The position numbers and the translations under genes are program-made. Below, one piece after another: positions 11,753 to 21,230 of a DNA stretch of 28,563 bases. The notes below the pieces were generated by a model, which saw nothing but the letters and a program-made list of their open reading frames with translations, did no database searches and was not told the DNA's origin. Where the stretch lies: IMG/VR virus record IMGVR_UViG_3300045963_000149, positions 1 to 28,563 of that record; one strand, 5' to 3'. This stretch comes from a virus. How positions within the stretch are numbered: position 1 is the stretch's first letter; the number at the start of each line of letters is the position of its first letter.

Positions 11753-12625
11753 ATGAATGCTCAAGCAACGTCGTTCGATGACATGGAAGACGACTTAGAC
11801 TTTATCTCGTCCAACCCTCACAAGGAGTTGGCCAAGGAGAAAGAGTTGTACAAGGAGTCTTGCACGTCCTGCCATGGCAGCGGCCGCTTTGTCGGCTGGT
11901 CTTCGTACGGCAAGGAATGCTTCGCCTGTGAAGGCCGCGGCTTCAAGGAATTCAAGACGAGCCCTGAGTACCGCAAGGCTCGGGCAGCCAAGACAGCTGC
12001 CAACAAGGCGAGCGCTGCACGCGACAAAATGGTTGCTCAAAATGCCTGGCGCGCTGATCACCCAGACGTGATCGCCTGGGTCAATGGCCAAGACGGTCGC
12101 TTTGACTTCGGTACGGCGATGGCCAACGCTCTGCAGCAGTACGGCACCTTGACCGAAAACCAAGTTGCTGCCATCCGCCGCTGCATCGCTCGTGATGCTG
12201 ACTACAAGGCACAACGTGAGGAAAAGCTCAAGGCTGCTGCCGAAGTTGCACCGCAAGTCAACGCCTCCAAGTTGGAAGACGCCTTTCGTATTGCGAAAGG
12301 CAAGGGTCTCAAATGGCCCAAAATCAAGATCGCTGGCGTCAAGATCTCTCCTGCCAGTGAGACAAGCGCAAACGCTGGAGCCTTGTACGTCAAAGAGGGT
12401 GAGACCTACCTCGGCAAGGTTTTTGGTGGTCGGTTCCTTAAGAGCCGTGACTGCGGTGCAGAGCAAGAAGGCATTGTGGTCAACCTGATCAACGACCCCA
12501 AGGGCTACGCTGAAGCCTACGGCTTACGCACCGGTCAATGCTGCATCTGCAGCCGTGAGCTGACCAACAAAGAGTCGATCGACCGTGGCATCGGCCCGAT
12601 CTGTGCCGAGAAGTTCGGCTGGTAA
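11753..12625 (+). CDS. Two-zinc-motif protein with C-terminal DUF6011-like domain
   Basis: A 290-residue protein. The N-terminal part has a DnaJ-type zinc pair: C-T-S-C-H-G-S-G (C37, C40) and C-F-A-C-E-G-R-G (C56, C59). The middle (about residues 70-190) is helical and charged. Residues about 190-255 form a beta-rich stretch. The C-terminus (263-290) is C-C-I-C-S-R-E-L, then S-I-x-R-G-I-G-P-I-C-A, the DUF6011 signature, a second zinc-binding site common in phage and plasmid proteins handling nucleic acids. The function is unknown; a DNA- or RNA-binding role is inferred. The start is the ATG after leader copy 3, which has a good AAAGG, and a UUCG hairpin follows the stop. Confidence 0.82.
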   Translation: MNAQATSFDDMEDDLDFISSNPHKELAKEKELYKESCTSCHGSGRFVGWSSYGKECFACEGRGFKEFKTSPEYRKARAAKTAANKASAARDKMVAQNAWRADHPDVIAWVNGQDGRFDFGTAMANALQQYGTLTENQVAAIRRCIARDADYKAQREEKLKAAAEVAPQVNASKLEDAFRIAKGKGLKWPKIKIAGVKISPASETSANAGALYVKEGETYLGKVFGGRFLKSRDCGAEQEGIVVNLINDPKGYAEAYGLRTGQCCICSRELTNKESIDRGIGPICAEKFGW

Positions 12626-12733: not shown

Positions 12734-13486
12734 ATGACTGAAGAAAACAACCTCGACTCGGTAATGCGTCGTGTCAAAAAGCTCCTGGCAATTGCTCAGG
12801 ACGCACGCGGTGACGCCAACGAGTGTGCTGCAGCTGCACGGATGGCCGAGTCCATCATGCGCAAGTATGAAATCGAGCACGCTGACGTGATCAGCGCTGA
12901 GATTAAAAACGCCGGTGCTGAAGCGTTCGACTACTGCAACATCGGCGCTGGCATGGACGTATCTTGGAAAGTTAAGACGGCCAGCGGTTGGGCCGGTTGG
13001 TTGGCCGTTGCTGTGGCAAACCTCTACGAATGCCAGGCACGGTACGGCGAAGTCGAAGGGTACAAGACCATCAAGTTCAGTGGTTACCGCACGGACGTAC
13101 AGATGGCCAAGTTCACCTACGAGTACATTGTCAATCAGATGGGCGCTGCTTCACGTGAGTTTACTAAGAATCACACAGGCGAGTTTGGCGTACGCGCTGA
13201 AGCTGAGTCTTTCCGCCGAGGCTTCATCCAAGCCTGCATTGCCTCTCTCAAGAAGCTGATCGAAGAGAAGAAGGCAGAGATGCAAGAGGCTGCCTCAAGC
13301 CGCGCGCTTGTCATCGTCAAGTCTCAAGCGGTGGCTCAGCACTTCGGCGAGGTCAAGTACGGCGCGTCCAACAGCAAGACACGTCAAGGCGAAGCTTACG
13401 ATCAAGGCCGAACGAAGGGCAGCCAAGTGGACGTCACACGGCGTGGTGTTGGTCACAGCGGAGGCACAGCTCCACGACTCAAGTAA
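12734..13486 (+). CDS. DUF2786-domain protein
   Basis: A 250-residue protein. The first 50 residues match DUF2786: V-K-K-L-L-A-I-A-Q-D, then N-E-C-A-A-A-A-R-M-A-E-S-I-M-R-K-Y-E-I. The following region has W-A-G-W-L-A-V-A-V-A-N-L-Y and F-S-G-Y-R-T-D-V-Q-M-A-K-F-T-Y-E-Y, which commonly continues the family in phages. A helical stretch (about 165-195) and a basic Gly/Ser-rich tail (T-R-R-G-V-G-H-S-G-G) end the protein. The biochemical function is not known; similar genes are widespread in phage early regions. Translation should start at ATG 12734 after leader copy 4, and a GGGGC-TTCT-GCCCC hairpin closes the cassette. Confidence 0.85.
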   Translation: MTEENNLDSVMRRVKKLLAIAQDARGDANECAAAARMAESIMRKYEIEHADVISAEIKNAGAEAFDYCNIGAGMDVSWKVKTASGWAGWLAVAVANLYECQARYGEVEGYKTIKFSGYRTDVQMAKFTYEYIVNQMGAASREFTKNHTGEFGVRAEAESFRRGFIQACIASLKKLIEEKKAEMQEAASSRALVIVKSQAVAQHFGEVKYGASNSKTRQGEAYDQGRTKGSQVDVTRRGVGHSGGTAPRLK

Positions 13487-13562: not shown

Positions 13563-13739
13563 ATGAACATGTGGACAAAGCTGATTACCGTGTGGCTCAA
13601 CGTCGATATCACTATTGCTGTTAAAGTTAAAGATGAACTCTGCGAGATGGGCATCAGCTTCAGCAACAGCACCGAGCGTCAACTCAAGCGCGCCGCCAAA
13701 GAGGCACTGGAAACTCTCAAAGCCAGAGGACAAGCGTGA
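13563..13739 (+). CDS. Small protein of unknown function, cassette gene 6
   Basis: A 58-residue protein starting at ATG 13563 after leader copy 5 (AAAGG 8 nt upstream). The N-terminus is hydrophobic (M-W-T-K-L-I-T-V-W-L-N-V), followed by a charged helix (S-T-E-R-Q-L-K-R-A-A-K-E-A-L-E-T-L-K). The stop TGA overlaps the GTG start of the dCMP deaminase (GTGA), so both genes are probably translated from the same messenger. There is no known motif. Its reading frame, leader and coupling make it a convincing gene in spite of its size. Confidence 0.72.
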   Translation: MNMWTKLITVWLNVDITIAVKVKDELCEMGISFSNSTERQLKRAAKEALETLKARGQA

Positions 13740-14158
13740 GACCTACACTAGATCAGTACTTCATGGAGATAGCACACGTGGCAGCCAAGCGTGCTACGTG
13801 TGCACGGCGCAGAGTTGGATGCGTCATCGTTGACGCCAACGGCTACATCCTGTCGACAGGCTACAACGGCATGCCAAAGGGTTTCCCTCACTGCATCGAT
13901 GAGCCATGTGACGGCGCCAATTACCCGAGCGGCACAGGCCTCGACTTGTGCCAGTCATTGCACGCTGAGCAGAATGCCATTGCTCGGCTGCGTGAACCGT
14001 TCCTGGCACACACGCTCTACTGCACGACTGCCCCTTGCATCAGTTGTGTGAAACTGATCCTGGCCACTAGTATGCAGCGGATTGTGTTCGACTCCGACTA
14101 TCTCAGTGGCGGCAAAGACCTGTGGTTGAGGGCAAACAAGGTCTGGGACAAGCTGTGA
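13736..14158 (+). CDS. Deoxycytidylate (dCMP) deaminase
   Basis: A 140-residue zinc enzyme converting dCMP to dUMP. Motifs: V-G-C-V-I-V-D (27-33), T-G-Y-N-G-M-P-K-G (41-49), the catalytic H-A-E-Q-N-A-I (H76, E78) and P-C-I-S-C (C101, C104) binding zinc. C-x-D-E-P-C in the substrate loop is typical of the ComEB/T4 Cd class. It starts at GTG 13736 in GTGA overlap with the upstream gene and is itself overlapped by the polymerase start, so it is produced with the replication gene. The dUMP it supplies would feed the thymidylate-synthase-like enzyme on the opposite strand (19822-20469), which fits a modified-pyrimidine pathway. Confidence 0.93.
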   Translation: MRPTLDQYFMEIAHVAAKRATCARRRVGCVIVDANGYILSTGYNGMPKGFPHCIDEPCDGANYPSGTGLDLCQSLHAEQNAIARLREPFLAHTLYCTTAPCISCVKLILATSMQRIVFDSDYLSGGKDLWLRANKVWDKL

Positions 14159-15963
14159 AGATCAGGCCAAAGGCGGTACTCGACATCGAGTGCTACCGCA
14201 ATTTCTTCCTCATTGCACTCAAGAACATTGAGACTGGCAGAGTCGCCACGTTCGAGCGCTCTGACTGGACCGACTTCGACAGTGAGCAACTCAAGCGCGT
14301 GCTTGTCAAGTACACCATCGTGACGTTCAACGGTAAGCGCTATGACGAGTTGCTGCTAAAGGCTTGCATTCGTGGAGCAGACAATGCTGAACTAAAGAAG
14401 CTCAGCGATGACATCATCATCAACGACCTCAAAGCCTGGCACGCAGAGACCAACTATCGCCTGCTGCCATGCACGTACATCGACCACATCGACTTGATCG
14501 AGGTGGCCCCTGGCAAAGCCAGCCTAAAAATCTACGGTGGCAGGCTGCACAGCAAGCGGATGCAGGACTTGCCGATTGCACCTGACGCAGAGATCAGCTC
14601 AGTCAGTCGTGAGCTGTTGGCAGACTATTGCGTCAACGACCTCAACACGACGATCGATCTGTACAAGAGCATCAGAAAGCAAATCGAGCTGCGTGAACGA
14701 ATGAGCAACGAGTACGAAGTCGACTTGCGTTCCAAGTCAGACGCACAGATGGCCGAAGCAGTCATCCGCAGCCAGATTGAAAAAATCAAGGGCGAACGGA
14801 TCTATCGGCCTGAGTTCAGCAAGGACTACTCATTCAACTACCGGGCTCCATCGTGGGTCAGCTTCAAACACATTGAGCTTGTGAAAGCACTGCAAGTCTT
14901 CACCTCTGTCACGTTCAAGCTCGATGAGAAAGGTGACGTCAAAGAGCCTGACGAAGTCGGCGCACTCAAGTTCAGCATCAACGACACTGTCTACCAGCTA
15001 GGCATTGGCGGCATCCACTCATGTGAGAAGAAGCTGTTTCACGTAGCATCTTCGCAATGTGGTATTTACGACCGCGACGTGACCTCGTACTATCCAAACA
15101 TTATCTTGAACCAGCGGCTTGCTCCTGAGCACTTAGGCGCTGACTTCTTGAAGGTTTACAGGTCCATCGTTGAGAGGCGCATTCACGCCAAACGAACCGG
15201 TGACAGTGTCACTGACGCGTCTCTCAAGATCACGATCAATGGTTCGTTTGGCAAGTTCGGTTCAAAGTGGTCTGCCTTGTACGGACCGAACTTGCTGATC
15301 CAGACTACGGTCACGGGTCAGTTGGCGTTATTGATGCTCATCGAATCTCTTGAAGACATCGGAGCTCGTGTGGTCAGTGCAAACACCGATGGCATCGTGA
15401 TCCTCTGTAATGTTACTCACAGAGCTTGCATGCTTAAGCGCATCGAGCTGTGGGAGAAGCAGACTGGCTTTGGCACAGAAGAGACCGAGTACGCTGCGCT
15501 CTATTCTAGGGACGTCAACAACTACATCGCGCTGAAAAAAGACGGCAGCTACAAGGTCAAAGGCGCGTACGCTGACCCGAACCTAAGCAAGACACCTGCT
15601 CACCAGATCTGCGTCAAGGCTGTGATCGACTACCTACAGTTCGGTCTGCCGATCGAGATGACGGTCAGGCGCTGCAAGGACATCAAGCAATTCGTCACAG
15701 TGCGTGCCGTGACAGGCGGTGCAGTCAAAGGTGACGACTATTTAGGCAAAGCTGTCCGCTGGTACTACGCCATTGGAGAGACGTCTGCTATTCACTACAA
15801 GAAGAACGGCAACAAGGTCCCACGTACAGATGGAGCCAAGCCGGTCATGGAGCTGCCAAGCAAGCTTCCGTCCGACCTAGATCATGCATGGTACATCAAA
15901 GAGGCATACGACATGTTAGCCGACATTGGAATCAAACAACCACCCACAACCACGAAGGAGTAG
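14155..15963 (+). CDS. Compact family B-like DNA polymerase with 3'-5' exonuclease motifs
   Basis: A 602-residue replicative polymerase starting at GTG 14155 (GTGA overlap with the deaminase). Exonuclease motifs: L-D-I-E (D10, E12), F-N-G-K-R-Y-D (N59, D64) and Y-C-V-N-D (D162). Polymerase motif A is Y-D-R-D-V-T-S-Y-Y-P (D308), motif B is K-I-T-I-N-G-S-F-G (K358, N362), and motif C is S-A-N-T-D-G-I (D412). Motif C reads NTD where DTD is usual; the second Asp, which binds metal, is kept. Only about 50 residues separate motifs A and B, so the fingers region is short and I see no protein-priming TPR insertions. It should replicate the phage genome with the helicase and ssDNA-binding protein on the other strand. 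Confidence 0.88.
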   Translation: MKIRPKAVLDIECYRNFFLIALKNIETGRVATFERSDWTDFDSEQLKRVLVKYTIVTFNGKRYDELLLKACIRGADNAELKKLSDDIIINDLKAWHAETNYRLLPCTYIDHIDLIEVAPGKASLKIYGGRLHSKRMQDLPIAPDAEISSVSRELLADYCVNDLNTTIDLYKSIRKQIELRERMSNEYEVDLRSKSDAQMAEAVIRSQIEKIKGERIYRPEFSKDYSFNYRAPSWVSFKHIELVKALQVFTSVTFKLDEKGDVKEPDEVGALKFSINDTVYQLGIGGIHSCEKKLFHVASSQCGIYDRDVTSYYPNIILNQRLAPEHLGADFLKVYRSIVERRIHAKRTGDSVTDASLKITINGSFGKFGSKWSALYGPNLLIQTTVTGQLALLMLIESLEDIGARVVSANTDGIVILCNVTHRACMLKRIELWEKQTGFGTEETEYAALYSRDVNNYIALKKDGSYKVKGAYADPNLSKTPAHQICVKAVIDYLQFGLPIEMTVRRCKDIKQFVTVRAVTGGAVKGDDYLGKAVRWYYAIGETSAIHYKKNGNKVPRTDGAKPVMELPSKLPSDLDHAWYIKEAYDMLADIGIKQPPTTTKE

Positions 15964-16637: not shown

Positions 16638-16847
16638 ATGATCAAAACTCTATTTGATAGCGGCCACACGCTCATCGACAACAATGTCGGTGACTTAGAC
16701 TTGGTCTGCCCATTCGAACGTCAAACCCTGTTCGTACCAGCGATGATTGGTATCACACTGACTAACAAGACGAAGTGCCCTATCTGTGGCTCCCAGTTGG
16801 GGATTCGTATCAAGGACAACGACTACGGCTCAAACTCCGTTGACTAG
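16638..16847 (+). CDS. Small protein with C-P-I-C-G zinc-like motif
   Basis: A 69-residue protein. ATG 16638 with GGGAAAG upstream is preferred over GTG 16626. It contains D-L-V-C-P-F-E-R and C-P-I-C-G-S-Q-L, three cysteines in the spacing of half a zinc ribbon, so metal binding is possible but incomplete on sequence alone. It is the last plus-strand gene, and its final 18 nt overlap, tail to tail, the end of the minus-strand gene at 16830. Confidence 0.65.
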   Translation: MIKTLFDSGHTLIDNNVGDLDLVCPFERQTLFVPAMIGITLTNKTKCPICGSQLGIRIKDNDYGSNSVD

Positions 16848-17963
16848 CATCTTGTACTCAAGTGGCGACATTTTGCCCTTGATCACGTAGTCGTCCGATG
16901 GGTGGACGTCGATCTCGTTGAACGACTTGATCAGCCCATAGTCGAGCATGGCCTTCTGTCTGCCGAATGGGTGGTCCTGGATTGTGCTACTGTTCCACAG
17001 CGTGTCGCGGTCCAGATGGTTGTAGTCATGGCCAGGCCTGACATAATTTTCAATCCAGCGGATGAAGTCGCAGCAGATGTCCTCAGCATCATATGGGTGC
17101 TCGCCCGTATCGCTCTGAATCTGTTCCATCACAGCATCGAGGAACGACTCCTCTGGGCCACGTCCAAGCGGCCTCGCCAGGTACTTGATGCACTCTTTTG
17201 CGTTTGTGCCGTAGAAAAACGGCGTGTTGCGCCAAACCAGACCTGGGTAGAAGTCTGCGATGTCTGCAATCACAGCTGCGTACTGGAACTTGTAGGCCCG
17301 AAGATTTTTCAGCTTGTTCCAGGCAAACATCCACTCACCGACTTTACGCAGTGTTGGTTTGTCCGATTGATTCAGCATCTCAGCCAACTCCCTCGCTAAG
17401 CTTGGCGCGTAGGCTGCTAGGAACGTGTCACCTCCAAGCTTAAACCGGCCGCTTGGCTTTGGGAATGCTGGAAACTGGTAGCCGACACTTGTGTAGATCT
17501 TCATCGTATCCGGGCGATTGGCCACCACGTCGATCATGTCTTCAATCGAACGGCACTCAGACAGGTGCGGAAGGATAGTGTTGTTGTATCCGCTTGGCTT
17601 CTTGGCGTAGTTGATGCCGCTTCCAGTCACACGATGAAGGATGAAGACGTACAGCCATTCAGGCAGATCCCAGTACTCGTGGATGAAGTCAAACTTGTCG
17701 CAAATGGGTTTGCGCACCGCGTGTAGCTTGTTTGCGTACGGGTGCTCAGGACTGTTGGCGTACCACAGGTCTAGGACAATCTGCGTAAATCCGGCATACT
17801 TACGGTTGACCACGTCGTAGAGATGCACGTTCTGCATGAGAGGGTCTTTGACCGTCCCTTGGTCTTGTGGAATCGTGCCGAGGTTGCACTCTATCTGCTG
17901 CGTCTTCGCCATCTGGTAGTAGCGAAGAAACTCGTTGTAGTAGCGCGTCTTCTCTATTCTCAT
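16830..17963 (-). CDS. Putative amino acid:DNA transferase (aGPT-pyrophosphorylase-like, DNA-glycosylase fold)
   Basis: A 377-residue protein starting at ATG 17963 (AGAGAGG upstream, ATGA overlap with the PLP enzyme gene). The frame to 17996 would add residues read from inside the upstream gene. The core has W-L-Y-V-F-I-L-H-R-V-T-G-S-G-I-N-Y at about 103-119, then G-Y-N-N-T-I-L, and F-Q-Y-A-A-V-I-A-D with F-F-Y-G-T-N-A-K-E-C at 227-258. The R-x-T-G-S-G segment and this layout resemble the alpha-glutamyl/putrescinyl-thymine pyrophosphorylase clade. In phages such as ViI and M6 these proteins attach an amino acid to phosphorylated 5-hydroxymethyluracil in DNA. The PLP enzyme and hydroxymethylase-like neighbours support this. 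The assignment is by eye; a divergent glycosylase-like protein of other function is possible. Confidence 0.6.
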   Translation of the reverse strand: MRIEKTRYYNEFLRYYQMAKTQQIECNLGTIPQDQGTVKDPLMQNVHLYDVVNRKYAGFTQIVLDLWYANSPEHPYANKLHAVRKPICDKFDFIHEYWDLPEWLYVFILHRVTGSGINYAKKPSGYNNTILPHLSECRSIEDMIDVVANRPDTMKIYTSVGYQFPAFPKPSGRFKLGGDTFLAAYAPSLARELAEMLNQSDKPTLRKVGEWMFAWNKLKNLRAYKFQYAAVIADIADFYPGLVWRNTPFFYGTNAKECIKYLARPLGRGPEESFLDAVMEQIQSDTGEHPYDAEDICCDFIRWIENYVRPGHDYNHLDRDTLWNSSTIQDHPFGRQKAMLDYGLIKSFNEIDVHPSDDYVIKGKMSPLEYKMLVNGV

Positions 17964-18865
17964 AGACCTCTCTCTAAGTCGCTCATGTCGTGCCACTCTC
18001 TCTGACTGCGGATGGACTCTATCAGACCAGGTGTGAGATGGCGCTCAATGTCTGCGTCTGCTCCTACGTTGATGAAGATCGCACCGGGTTTTGCAAAGAC
18101 GTCGAAGTCTGTCCAGCACTTAGCATCGTAGTTGGCCGTCGATGGAAATGGCGGGTACTCTGCAGGCTTGACGTCTTTCAAGAACGGCGTCGTTGAGCTA
18201 ATGACTTTGGCATTGCCGATCTCGCCGTCGTGCATGTTGCGAGACACTGCGATGCCTCGTGCTTCAACTGCAGGCCAAGCAATCTGGAACGCTCTGATTG
18301 CTGTGCCAGTGGACACGGCCATCCAGATCTGAGTAGGGTCTTTGCCGATCTTCTTGCTGATGTTGATCGACACGTTGACCAGGCCTGCAGTGACCAAAGG
18401 CACGCCTGTCAGACCGAACGGCAAGAACAACGCGCCGTGCTTTGTGGCCCATCGCTTTGCATACGTGTTCAACGTTGGCATTGCAGCGATCTTGATGAAG
18501 CGAAGGTCCGCTCCCCTGGCTTTGAGAACGGCCTGGTGCTTGGATGGATGCTCAGCTGCAGGACAAAAGAAGACGCACTTCTTGCCATACATTTCTGCGA
18601 GAGTGGCGATAGCGTCCGGCGCGTGGCCAACTCGCGGTGCGCAGTAGACCAACACGTCTTCTTTAGCTTCAGCTATGATCCTCTCTGCGCCAAATGCCTT
18701 GAGGCCTGCAGGTGCCTTGTCTGCTCTGAAGATCCACTTGTCCTCATAGGCTTCGACGGTCGGTTCAGGCATTCTGCCCTTGAAGCTGTCGTACATGTCA
18801 ACGTAGTCCTGCCGAGTGTGGCTCAGCAGGTCTTTGTTCGTTGTGTCCCGCGTGACGGTGAACAT
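17960..18865 (-). CDS. PLP-dependent enzyme, fold type II (ACC deaminase/TrpB-like)
   Basis: A 301-residue protein whose ATG directly follows the stop of the SGNH gene (TGAATG). The N-terminal W-I-F-R-A-D-K-A-P-A-G-L-K-A-F-G-A-E-R matches the R-x-D-x-x-x-x-G-x-K-x-R region of fold type II enzymes, with K56 the likely Schiff-base lysine. A-E-H-P-S-K-H-Q-A-V-L-K-A-R-G-A at about 104-119 is the usual domain-closing segment, and S-T-G-T (185-188) the phosphate-binding loop. Relatives deaminate, decarboxylate or eliminate from amino acids. In described hypermodification systems a PLP enzyme processes the amino acid already attached to DNA. Position between the SGNH-like and transferase-like genes fits that. 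The substrate is unknown. Confidence 0.8.
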   Translation of the reverse strand: MFTVTRDTTNKDLLSHTRQDYVDMYDSFKGRMPEPTVEAYEDKWIFRADKAPAGLKAFGAERIIAEAKEDVLVYCAPRVGHAPDAIATLAEMYGKKCVFFCPAAEHPSKHQAVLKARGADLRFIKIAAMPTLNTYAKRWATKHGALFLPFGLTGVPLVTAGLVNVSINISKKIGKDPTQIWMAVSTGTAIRAFQIAWPAVEARGIAVSRNMHDGEIGNAKVISSTTPFLKDVKPAEYPPFPSTANYDAKCWTDFDVFAKPGAIFINVGADADIERHLTPGLIESIRSQREWHDMSDLERGL

Positions 18866-19825
18866 TCAGCTCCAATCAAAATAGCGGCGATAGTACTTGG
18901 GTGCGATGTGGACCGAGCCACCCATTTCCATGAACCTCTCAGCATAGAGCTCAGGGTCCATGTCGTACCAGCTAAATGGTGGTTGCACAAGATCGATGCC
19001 GTGTTTGCCAATCTCATCCATGAAATGATTAGTCCAACCTGACCGCTGACACTGCGTGCCACAGAATGGCGTGTTGTTGTAGTAGCCTGTCTTAGGCAGC
19101 TTGCGACCCTCATACTCCACTGGCACAGGCGCAGCAACTTCAACTTCGCACATGTAGTCGTCTTGGATCGATTTGACGTGGTCTGCGTAGTCTTTGCAGA
19201 GCTTTCTGATACCCTCGACAGGATTGGCAAGGCGACCGATATGGTGTCGGATGTCTATTGATCCATAGACCAAAGTTACGCGCTCCGGTGTTATGCTGAG
19301 CGCGTCGATTTGTGTTTTGATTGAGCCTGATTTGAGTACGCCATGGAGAGTGGCACCGTTGGTTCTGAGCACGCTGCTCCCGGATGCGCTGAATGCCGTT
19401 GAGTGGCTGTCGCCGATGGTGACGTGTGACTGACCAAGGCCTGCCATTGTCAAGGTCTCAGAGGCATAGAGCCTTTGACCCAGTGTGTCAAGAAGATGGG
19501 CCAAAGCAGGGTGGCACGTCGACTGGCCTAGCCGCTTGCTGAGTTGCTCAACGTAGTCTGGCATCGGAATGTCCAGGCTGATGAGCTTAACCGGCTCAGC
19601 TAGCAGCATGTCCATCAGATTGTCGATGACTTTGTCGGTCACGCCGCCGAACAGATTCATCGTGCCGCCGAAGTTGACACCATGATCGAGGTAGAGAAAT
19701 GAGTGACCGGTCAAGCTGCCACCGTCGCTGATCTTTGATCCAAGCAGATCAGCCCAGACCATAGACCAACCACGAACGTGACTGCGGCCATTCGCCGGAA
19801 TGCCTGAAAACGGATTAAAGATCAT
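18866..19825 (-). CDS. SGNH/GDSL hydrolase-like protein in the modification operon
   Basis: A 319-residue protein starting at ATG 19825 (ATGA overlap with the synthase-like gene; the longer frame to 19921 is inside that gene). Block I is V-T-I-G-D-S-H-S (G138-S142) with Ser140 the expected nucleophile. V-Y-G-S-I-D-I-R-H-H-I-G (187-197) corresponds to the third block as in relatives with G-E-I-D-x-R-x-H. S-V-H-I-A-P-K-Y-Y near the C-terminus would hold the catalytic His. SGNH enzymes are esterases, acyl hydrolases or acyltransferases. The N-terminal 130 residues are not recognised. Tight coupling between synthase and PLP genes implies a step in the same pathway, for example acyl transfer to or from a modified base, but no activity is proven. 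Confidence 0.68.
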   Translation of the reverse strand: MIFNPFSGIPANGRSHVRGWSMVWADLLGSKISDGGSLTGHSFLYLDHGVNFGGTMNLFGGVTDKVIDNLMDMLLAEPVKLISLDIPMPDYVEQLSKRLGQSTCHPALAHLLDTLGQRLYASETLTMAGLGQSHVTIGDSHSTAFSASGSSVLRTNGATLHGVLKSGSIKTQIDALSITPERVTLVYGSIDIRHHIGRLANPVEGIRKLCKDYADHVKSIQDDYMCEVEVAAPVPVEYEGRKLPKTGYYNNTPFCGTQCQRSGWTNHFMDEIGKHGIDLVQPPFSWYDMDPELYAERFMEMGGSVHIAPKYYRRYFDWS

Positions 19826-20469
19826 ACGAGGTTGAAGTGGCGTGGATAGACGTGCAAGCTGCCGGCATTCCAGTAAATCGGACCTTTCTTGAGCTCCGGG
19901 TACTGTCGTTCCAAGTTGCACAAGGCCATGTCTTGTACGAAGTTGTGCCAGTGCCAGTCGCCCTTGTAGCCGAAGACGACATCGCTACTCCGCATGTTGA
20001 CGATGTAGTGCAGTTCATTGTTGCGGATCAACATTTGCGTCGAGTATGTGCACATGAAGTCCTTCATGCCGTTACGCCTGGAGTCCTCGTGCATGGTCGG
20101 CCTAGTGTAGATCATCACAGCTTGGCGACTTGTTGCATTGGCTTCTAAGGCCTTGATTGCAGTGAGGTACTGTCTATGGTTGTCCTCACTGAAAACGCAC
20201 CACCCATAGTTGGAGTTGATCTCGCCATCGAGTGATGCTATTTGCTTCCAGATTGCCGGGATGGGCGCAGGAATGTCTTCGATCTTAAGCGACTGGCTCA
20301 GGTACCATTGCAGCTCACGACGACACCAGCCATGGACCACATCGCCAAAAATCGTCTCTTCGTCAGCTATAAACGACGCATTGATGATCTCGAGGTTGCC
20401 GTCTTCGGAAAAGATCTGCTGGCTCAACAGGTTCTTGAATGTCTGCTGAATGTCCCTGACTGTTTTCAT
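19822..20469 (-). CDS. Thymidylate synthase / deoxynucleotide hydroxymethylase-like enzyme
   Basis: A 215-residue protein starting at ATG 20469 (ATGA overlap with the MazG-like gene). It follows the thymidylate synthase fold: S-N-Y-G-W near residue 90, S-R-Q-A-V-M (114-119), the nucleophile in D-F-M-C-T-Y-S (C140), M-R-S-S-D-V-V-F-G-Y (159-168), and the end G-S-L-H-V-Y-P-R-H (203-211). By eye, D171 falls where thymidylate synthases have the Asn that recognises uracil, as in T4 dCMP hydroxymethylase. This argues for a hydroxymethylase and against plain thymidylate synthase, but leaves dUMP versus dCMP open. It is shorter than typical synthases (about 260), mainly at the N-terminus. It would produce the 5-hydroxymethyl precursor for DNA hypermodification. 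Confidence 0.82.
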   Translation of the reverse strand: MKTVRDIQQTFKNLLSQQIFSEDGNLEIINASFIADEETIFGDVVHGWCRRELQWYLSQSLKIEDIPAPIPAIWKQIASLDGEINSNYGWCVFSEDNHRQYLTAIKALEANATSRQAVMIYTRPTMHEDSRRNGMKDFMCTYSTQMLIRNNELHYIVNMRSSDVVFGYKGDWHWHNFVQDMALCNLERQYPELKKGPIYWNAGSLHVYPRHFNLV

Positions 20470-21230
20470 CGTACGAACCGATCGTCTTTGTCCTTGTTGT
20501 GCTCGACGTGCTCCATTAGGATGAGCAACTGAGTACCTGCATGGGCAAGATGGTGGTGATTGGATTCAGGGTCTTTGTCAACGCCTCTCCAGAAGTCGAA
20601 CAGGTGACGCAGGATCGAACCGTATGTGCGACTCCATGCCACAGTGTCTCCTTCACGATACGAGTTGGCAAAGTACTTCCTGGTGCCAAAGCCGAACACG
20701 TTGGCGATCTGCATCATAGGGCCAATCGGCAGCAGGTCCACACGAACCTTGTCGCTGTCGAACTTAGGCGCAAAGCCTGGAACAATCGTGCCGTCTGAGC
20801 TCGGTGCAACCTTTGTGCCGGTGAGCTTAGTGATTCTTTTTTCCATCACATCGAACAGGATCTTGTTCAGTTCTTCCTCAGGGCCAGTCCAACCTGCCGG
20901 CTTGACCAAGTCACGCTTGAAGCCGCGCTTACTGGCTTCAGCACTGGCGGCCAATTCCTTCTTCATGTTTGCGCGCATCACAGTCTCAAAGCCTTCAAGC
21001 AGCGGAAAACCGTGACGCTCAAGAGTGCCGACAGTAAATACGAGCAAGTCGAGCAGAGCATCGTACTCATCGACAAGACCTACGGCCTCTTTGTACTCGT
21101 CCAACTCCTCTTGCATGGCCTTGACGCGAAACTCCTTCTCAGTCAAATCGAGATGAGCCGGATCGCCGTCATGAGACAAGCCGAATTTTTTGTGCATGTC
21201 CTGCACTAGCTTATAGAGTCGAGACTCCAT
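20466..21230 (-). CDS. MazG-like nucleoside triphosphate pyrophosphohydrolase with dATP/dGTP diphosphohydrolase N-terminal-type domain
   Basis: A 254-residue two-part protein with a strong AAGGAG before ATG 21230. Residues 1-75 carry a PRA-PH/MazG-like helical core: E-E-L-D-E (41-45) and D-E-Y-D-A-L-L-D (54-61), the acidic metal-binding pair. Residues about 106-245 contain K-F-D-S-D-K-V-R-V-D-L-L-P, G-T-R-K-Y-F-A-N, then H-L-F-D-F-W-R-G and H-H-H-L-A-H-A-G-T-Q-L-L, as in DUF5664/dGTP_diPhyd_N proteins. Such enzymes clear particular dNTPs. First in the coupled modification operon, it may remove the canonical nucleotide (dTTP or dCTP) or dUTP so that the modified one is incorporated. Nucleotide specificity cannot be read from the sequence. 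Confidence 0.78.
   Translation of the reverse strand: MESRLYKLVQDMHKKFGLSHDGDPAHLDLTEKEFRVKAMQEELDEYKEAVGLVDEYDALLDLLVFTVGTLERHGFPLLEGFETVMRANMKKELAASAEASKRGFKRDLVKPAGWTGPEEELNKILFDVMEKRITKLTGTKVAPSSDGTIVPGFAPKFDSDKVRVDLLPIGPMMQIANVFGFGTRKYFANSYREGDTVAWSRTYGSILRHLFDFWRGVDKDPESNHHHLAHAGTQLLILMEHVEHNKDKDDRFVR

Follow-up and report, generated by a model that had tools for sequence, protein, structure and literature searches.

A conserved phage operon combining a T4-type dCMP hydroxymethylase with relatives of thymine-hypermodification enzymes: a candidate pathway to hypermodified cytosine

Introduction

Phages decorate cytosine mostly with sugars on 5-hydroxymethylcytosine (5-hmC), and the T4 system consists of gp56, gp42, gp1 and the alpha- and beta-glucosyltransferases. 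Amino-acid-type hypermodification is established for thymine, in Pseudomonas phage M6, Salmonella phage ViI and Delftia phage phiW-14 (see PMC6449724). The CmoX-CmoY 5-carboxymethylcytosine/glycine amide system has been described in Synechococcus phage S-B43 (PMC12783734), and the Aeromonas phages 44RR, 31 and 25 have gene 42 and lack glucosyltransferases (PMC2993671). We found no paper in the openly accessible literature on amino-acid-type hypermodification of 5-hmC. Here we describe a five-gene operon in one complete virus record of 28,563 bp (IMG/VR record IMGVR_UViG_3300045963_000149, hereafter the window), which on balance appears to make a hypermodified cytosine, probably amino-acid-derived, via 5-hmC.

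The operon is conserved and comprises, besides a MazG-like gene, the genes for a dCMP hydroxymethylase (HMase), an SGNH-fold enzyme, an M6-like pyridoxal phosphate (PLP) enzyme and P1, a protein with the fold of the amino acid:DNA transferase (ADDT) and HMUDK proteins; the SGNH enzyme and P1 are linked by fusions. It joins T4-type cytosine hydroxymethylation to M6-type enzymes so far tied only to thymine, and this combination has come together in several phage backbones. Like the thymidine pathways of M6, ViI and phiW-14, it is a phage gene cluster with a transferase of the ADDT/HMUDK_hel structural group and a PLP enzyme belonging to the M6 family, and the hydroxymethylated pyrimidine would be made before replication. 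Unlike them, it uses cytosine, as judged from Asp179 of the HMase, has no Pfam-detectable ADDT, HMUDK_hel or radical SAM protein and no visible P-loop DNA kinase, and includes an SGNH enzyme not found in those loci. With T4 it shares a gp42 homologue (48% identical over 222 columns), a MazG-superfamily pyrophosphatase and a dCMP deaminase, whereas SGNH, PLP and P1 stand in place of the glucosyltransferases; neither the glucosyltransferase family nor a dNMP kinase was seen among the window proteins scanned. As with CmoX-CmoY, an amino acid is proposed to be placed on a C5-modified cytosine in phage DNA, but the carboxy-SAM methyltransferase and ATP-dependent amide ligase of that system (PMC12783734) are not among the families found in the operon. 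An earlier note on this DNA had proposed an operon for DNA-pyrimidine hypermodification with a composition different from those of ViI and M6, and the ADDT/HMUDK fold of P1 and the M6-related PLP enzyme support that proposal.

Results

Operon structure and conservation

All five open reading frames (ORFs) start with ATG, end with TGA and lie on the minus strand at the positions given in the earlier note (Table 1). From the MazG gene to the P1 gene the junctions are ATGA, ATGA, TGAATG and ATGA, the three ATGA junctions being 4-base overlaps, again as the note had reported. The order MazG-HMase-SGNH-PLP-P1-deaminase-PolB recurred in about 20 other contigs (deduplicated), from phages of about 45–56 kb with a family-B DNA polymerase (PolB). 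All five genes were under purifying selection, with dN/dS of about 0–0.19 between close relatives. The retained gene order and the low dN/dS together argue that the operon is not a chance arrangement. The first protein combines PF01503 (E=6e-7, residues 9–88) with PF18909 (dGTP_diPhyd_N; E=7e-24, residues 156–251), and is a candidate dCTP/dNTP pyrophosphatase for the pathway.

Hydroxymethylase and the starting base

The HMase family profile matched the T4 structure (PDB 1b49) with E=9e-97 and thymidylate synthases (TS) with at best about 1e-24. The gene, previously called thymidylate-synthase/hydroxymethylase-like, is therefore not a generic TS and is specifically of the T4 gp42 dCMP hydroxymethylase type; the family names given earlier to the MazG, SGNH and PLP proteins held. 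The window HMase retains counterparts of T4 Glu60, Ser94, Tyr96, Asp145, Cys148 and Asp179, and those of the catalytic Glu60 and Cys148 and of Asp179 (E52, C140 and D171) are invariant in the HMase alignment (A3). Asp179 is the determinant of dCMP versus dUMP specificity in T4 gp42 (PMC6400193). In counts made without deduplication, in which loci overlap and some of the alignments are doubtful, position 179 in module loci was Asp at 72 of the 73 places that could be scored; in M6/ViI/phiW-14-type thymidine loci it was most commonly Asn (46 places), another residue at 14 and Asp at none. The sole non-Asp residue in module loci was the Asn of a distant TS-type gene on a metagenome-assembled genome (MAG) contig, L151, which has only a P1 fragment. 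Asp was also retained in the divergent HMases of module-bearing T4-like and jumbo contigs.

Because the HMase is of the gp42 type with a conserved Asp179, the starting base is predicted to be cytosine; judged from sequence, the substrate of the pathway would be 5-hmC, and 5-hydroxymethyluracil (5-hmU), the starting base that the earlier note had assumed, is very unlikely. A dUMP-type hydroxymethylase with Asn at position 179, as in the M6/ViI thymidine pathway, was rejected on the Asp of the module loci. A TET/JBP route to 5-hmC was also considered and set aside, PF12851 being absent from the 12 records searched.

PLP enzyme

The PLP enzyme matched PALP in Pfam (E=4e-7) and phrog_7093 in PHROG (E=3e-54), and carries an invariant Lys56, the candidate Schiff-base lysine, and an STGT motif. 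Its hhalign comparison with the PLP enzymes whose genes neighbour the amino acid:DNA transferase gene of M6-like phages gave P=5.5e-8, against 0.05–0.5 for unrelated families. The C-terminal signature PFP...YDxKxW...IFxNxG is common to the module and M6-type enzymes, and the M6-type profile directly matched module PLP proteins of MAG contigs (E about 1e-6). At the level of sequence, the module enzyme is a homologue of the PLP enzyme of the M6 thymidine pathway. Distant PLP relatives were also seen in Erythrobacter phage R6L (gp1, L113:9001-9735) and Microcystis phage Mae-JY30 (L114:7387-9705); the latter sits after two ParB/sulfiredoxin genes and is annotated 'DNA modification methylase'.

P1 and its predicted fold

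P1 and 24 relatives had no significant Pfam or NCBIfam match with HMMER and did not match Pfam ADDT (PF18724) or HMUDK_hel (PF18723) at E<=1. The window P1 had no PHROG match, and its profile found nothing significant among PDB sequences. Its AlphaFold (AF2) model (predicted local distance difference test, pLDDT, 82.5) was searched with Foldseek. In BFVD it matched two 'Amino acid:DNA transferase domain' proteins, with E of 1e-29 (52% identical) and 8e-4, and further the SP10 5-hmdU DNA kinase (prob 1.0), aGPT-PPlase1, and the HMUDK_hel proteins of phiW-14 and phiRSL1. These distant relatives stood within the top 10 with prob 0.90–1.0, but with template modelling (TM) scores of just 0.4–0.5. 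The best matches in PDB were the helix-hairpin-helix (HhH) glycosylases MutY/Ogg, and were weak. By its fold, P1 is placed in the aGPT-PPlase/ADDT/HMUDK-helical group, and it is proposed as a candidate DNA-base transferase for amino-acid transfer to a 5-hydroxymethylpyrimidine. The resemblance to the aGPT-pyrophosphorylase clade noted earlier thus stands as a shared fold, whereas profile searches gave no significant ADDT or HMUDK_hel match. Some operons that are otherwise alike have, instead of the usual P1, a member of a divergent subfamily about 30% identical to it (L046:11877-12995, L052:11886-13010).

SGNH enzyme and its fusions

The SGNH enzyme matched phrog_13881 with E=7e-61 and Pfam SGNH/GDSL weakly (E=0.1). 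Its AF2 model (pLDDT 92.4) has the SGNH fold and resembles GDSL acetyl esterases in Foldseek (E 3e-5, prob 1.0). Ser140 of its GDSH motif, the candidate nucleophile, and His306 are both invariant. On a 225-kb contig (G004; L186:2379-4739), SGNH and P1 form a single ORF of 786–790 aa. In Aeromonas phage 44RR, the 795-aa ORF233c joins an SGNH N-terminus to a C-terminal HMUDK_hel-like domain, the only HMUDK_hel match of that genome (E=4e-4 in the genome search and 0.0036 with hmmscan, below the curated cut-off). These two distinct fusions to domains of the transferase group point to SGNH and P1 as partners in a single series of reactions on DNA. The SGNH enzyme is proposed to be an esterase or an acyl/aminoacyl transferase with the hydroxymethyl group as its target.

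Kinase and radical SAM searches

The ADDT and HMUDK_hel Pfam models found no match in the module-bearing records searched and matched the positive controls M6, ViI and phiW-14. Radical SAM (PF04055) was matched, among 11 records, only in M6, the positive control. The window was thus rightly described earlier as showing neither a 5-hmU DNA kinase nor a radical SAM gene. In two near-complete relatives of about 55 kb (G008 and G009), a P-loop scan brought up nothing but a primase-helicase; a P-loop DNA kinase was not seen. Activation of the hydroxymethyl group either needs no P-loop kinase, in which case the SGNH enzyme is the natural candidate, or is supplied by the host; the conversion of hmdCMP to the triphosphate likewise either proceeds without a P-loop kinase or is host-supplied. 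No T4 gp1-type hmdCMP kinase was visible in the near-complete relatives L189 and L192.

Distribution across phages

The module set was found across about 80 contigs with several phage backbones. Besides the order of the window, other contigs have HMase-deaminase-P1-c6-SGNH-PLP, and the module also occurs in 118-kb, T4-like (~175–180 kb), 225-kb and MAG contigs. SGNH and PLP are adjacent, on the same strand and within 30 bp, in 42 of 48 contigs; in most module loci the dCMP deaminase (cluster c5) lies next to HMase or P1. In many of these loci P1 is separated from SGNH or PLP by the 334-aa protein c6, which has no family match and whose profile comparison with P1 (P 0.002–0.018) is suggestive only.

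T4-like contigs carry an overlapping cluster c16-P1-c12-c6 (L037:8842-12302), in which c16 is an HhH-GPD protein (PF00730, E=4e-7) and c12 a short protein, nuclease-like by eye only and with no family match. P1-only T4-like contigs were considered as a separate system and rejected, since the large contigs G001 and G002 carry SGNH and PLP elsewhere. SGNH lies beside PLP on G001, and an Asp-type HMase lies near PLP on G002. No HMase was found on G001, which ends at a dUTPase gene, the neighbour of the HMase in G002.

Among cultured phages none was found to carry the full module, and a tblastn search of 50,697 phage records gave no match to P1 or c6. Relatives of SGNH are present in 40 Aeromonas/Stenotrophomonas T4-like records. 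The Aeromonas T4-like phages 44RR, 31, 25 and phiAS4 resemble the module in having a gp42 homologue and an SGNH protein of the same PHROG family, but differ in that no P1 or PLP homologue was detected and in that their SGNH genes neighbour an SSF transporter or a UDP-galactopyranose mutase. For any 5-hmC decoration in Aeromonas phages without a glucosyltransferase, the SGNH-HMUDK-helical-like fusion of 44RR is a concrete candidate; 44RR is culturable, and the old question of what, if anything, decorates 5-hmC in 44RR, 31 and 25 is now testable. The 44RR fusion has a sodium:solute symporter (ORF234c) directly upstream of it (L111:5399-9379), which might import a precursor. The SGNH gene of phiAS4 (L112:4766-8038) comes after a UDP-galactopyranose mutase gene (PF03275, E=6e-54) and a 358-aa ORF without annotation, a context that suggests furanosyl sugar chemistry on hmC there.

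Proposed pathway and alternatives

In the proposed pathway, the MazG-like enzyme would hydrolyse dCTP to free dCMP, as T4 gp56 does, and the gp42-type enzyme, for which homology is strong, would make 5-hydroxymethyl-dCMP that enters DNA via the phage polymerase. SGNH and P1, which probably act together because they are fused in one relative, would then turn the hydroxymethyl group in DNA into an amino-acid-bearing group: P1 would serve as a base-flipping transferase, and SGNH would either form an activating ester, to be displaced by the amino acid, in place of the M6/ViI kinase, or transfer an aminoacyl group directly. Finally, as the homology to M6 PLP suggests, the fold-type II PLP enzyme may remodel this amino acid once it is attached, with decarboxylation and beta-elimination as possible reactions. 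The end product is probably a 5-methyl(ene)cytosine bearing an amine or amino acid, and it would shield the DNA from host nucleases. More tentatively, the operon may represent a kinase-free, SGNH-dependent route to an undescribed amino-acid-derived cytosine, present in several backbones and partly reaching cultured Aeromonas T4-like phages.

Several observations weigh against an amino-acid-derived cytosine. The steps beyond hydroxymethylation are inferred. The link of P1 to its proposed group is structural alone, as its hhalign alignments to ADDT and HMUDK_hel were not significant (P about 0.1), in a test without power here, since the known siblings ADDT and HMUDK_hel give just P=0.02 against each other. 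The SGNH enzyme lacks the standard GxND (it has GSID/GNID instead) and the DxxH spacing (E300...H306). The P-loop scan of the two ~55-kb relatives did not reveal a T4 gp1-type hmdCMP kinase, and the Tulanevirus SGNH gene adjoins a UDP-galactopyranose mutase gene, suggesting a sugar context there.

This last point bears on the alternative that 5-hmC is decorated with a sugar or simple acyl group, SGNH acylating or deacylating the hydroxymethyl or its sugar, with P1 and PLP making the donor and the base carrying no amino acid. UDP-galactopyranose mutase genes lie close to SGNH in phiAS4 and in the vicinity of the module in L086 and L104, the SGNH model is similar to carbohydrate and acetyl esterases, and RB69-type arabinosyl-hmC is known (PMC6024577). 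We nevertheless consider it unlikely, as the conserved operon has no glycosyltransferase gene, and the relatives of both PLP and P1 are located in amino-acid hypermodification clusters.

It is still less probable that P1, together with its partner c6, attacks unmodified or foreign cytosine DNA in the manner of an HhH glycosylase (compare T4 denB/base-excision restriction), with the HMase protecting the phage. The weak resemblance of P1 to MutY/Ogg and its flanking by c16 and c12 in T4-like contigs fit this role, but P1 matches ADDT/HMUDK models better than glycosylases, and the coupling to SGNH and PLP, including the SGNH fusion, does not fit base excision.

A 5-hydroxymethyl-dU (thymidine) pathway akin to those of ViI and M6, whose kinase and radical SAM genes would lie beyond the window as the earlier note had allowed, would accord with the PLP homology to M6 and the structural link of P1 to ADDT/HMUDK but is highly improbable given the Asp179 of the gp42-type enzyme, the lack of HMUDK_hel, ADDT and radical SAM Pfam matches in near-complete relatives (the M6 control being positive) and the lack of a P-loop kinase in G008/G009.

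Neighbouring genes

The dCMP deaminase that had been noted nearby is present, and the PolB encoded beside it would be the expected user of the modified dNTP (Table 1).

Table 1 Operon genes and conserved neighbours in the window.
Feature	Position	Strand	Remarks
MazG-like (PRA-PH) pyrophosphohydrolase with C-terminal dATP/dGTP diphosphohydrolase N-terminal-type domain	20466-21230	-	254 aa; operon gene 1
dCMP hydroxymethylase (HMase), T4 gp42 type	19822-20469	-	215 aa; Pfam Thymidylat_synt
SGNH/GDSL-fold enzyme	18866-19825	-	319 aa from its ATG; phrog_13881 (unknown function)
Fold-type II PLP enzyme	17960-18865	-	301 aa; Pfam PALP
P1, putative all-alpha amino acid:DNA transferase/HMUDK-helical-like protein	16830-17963	-	377 aa; basis, AF2 fold
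dCMP deaminase, conserved module neighbour	13736-14158	+	phrog_174 E=3e-42; PF00383 E=7e-23
Family-B DNA polymerase (PolB)	14122-15963	+	phrog_1252 E=2e-192

Two further conserved phage genes of unassigned function lie at 11753-12625 (phrog_4046/DUF6011) and 12734-13486 (phrog_421/DUF7168-DUF2786) of the window.

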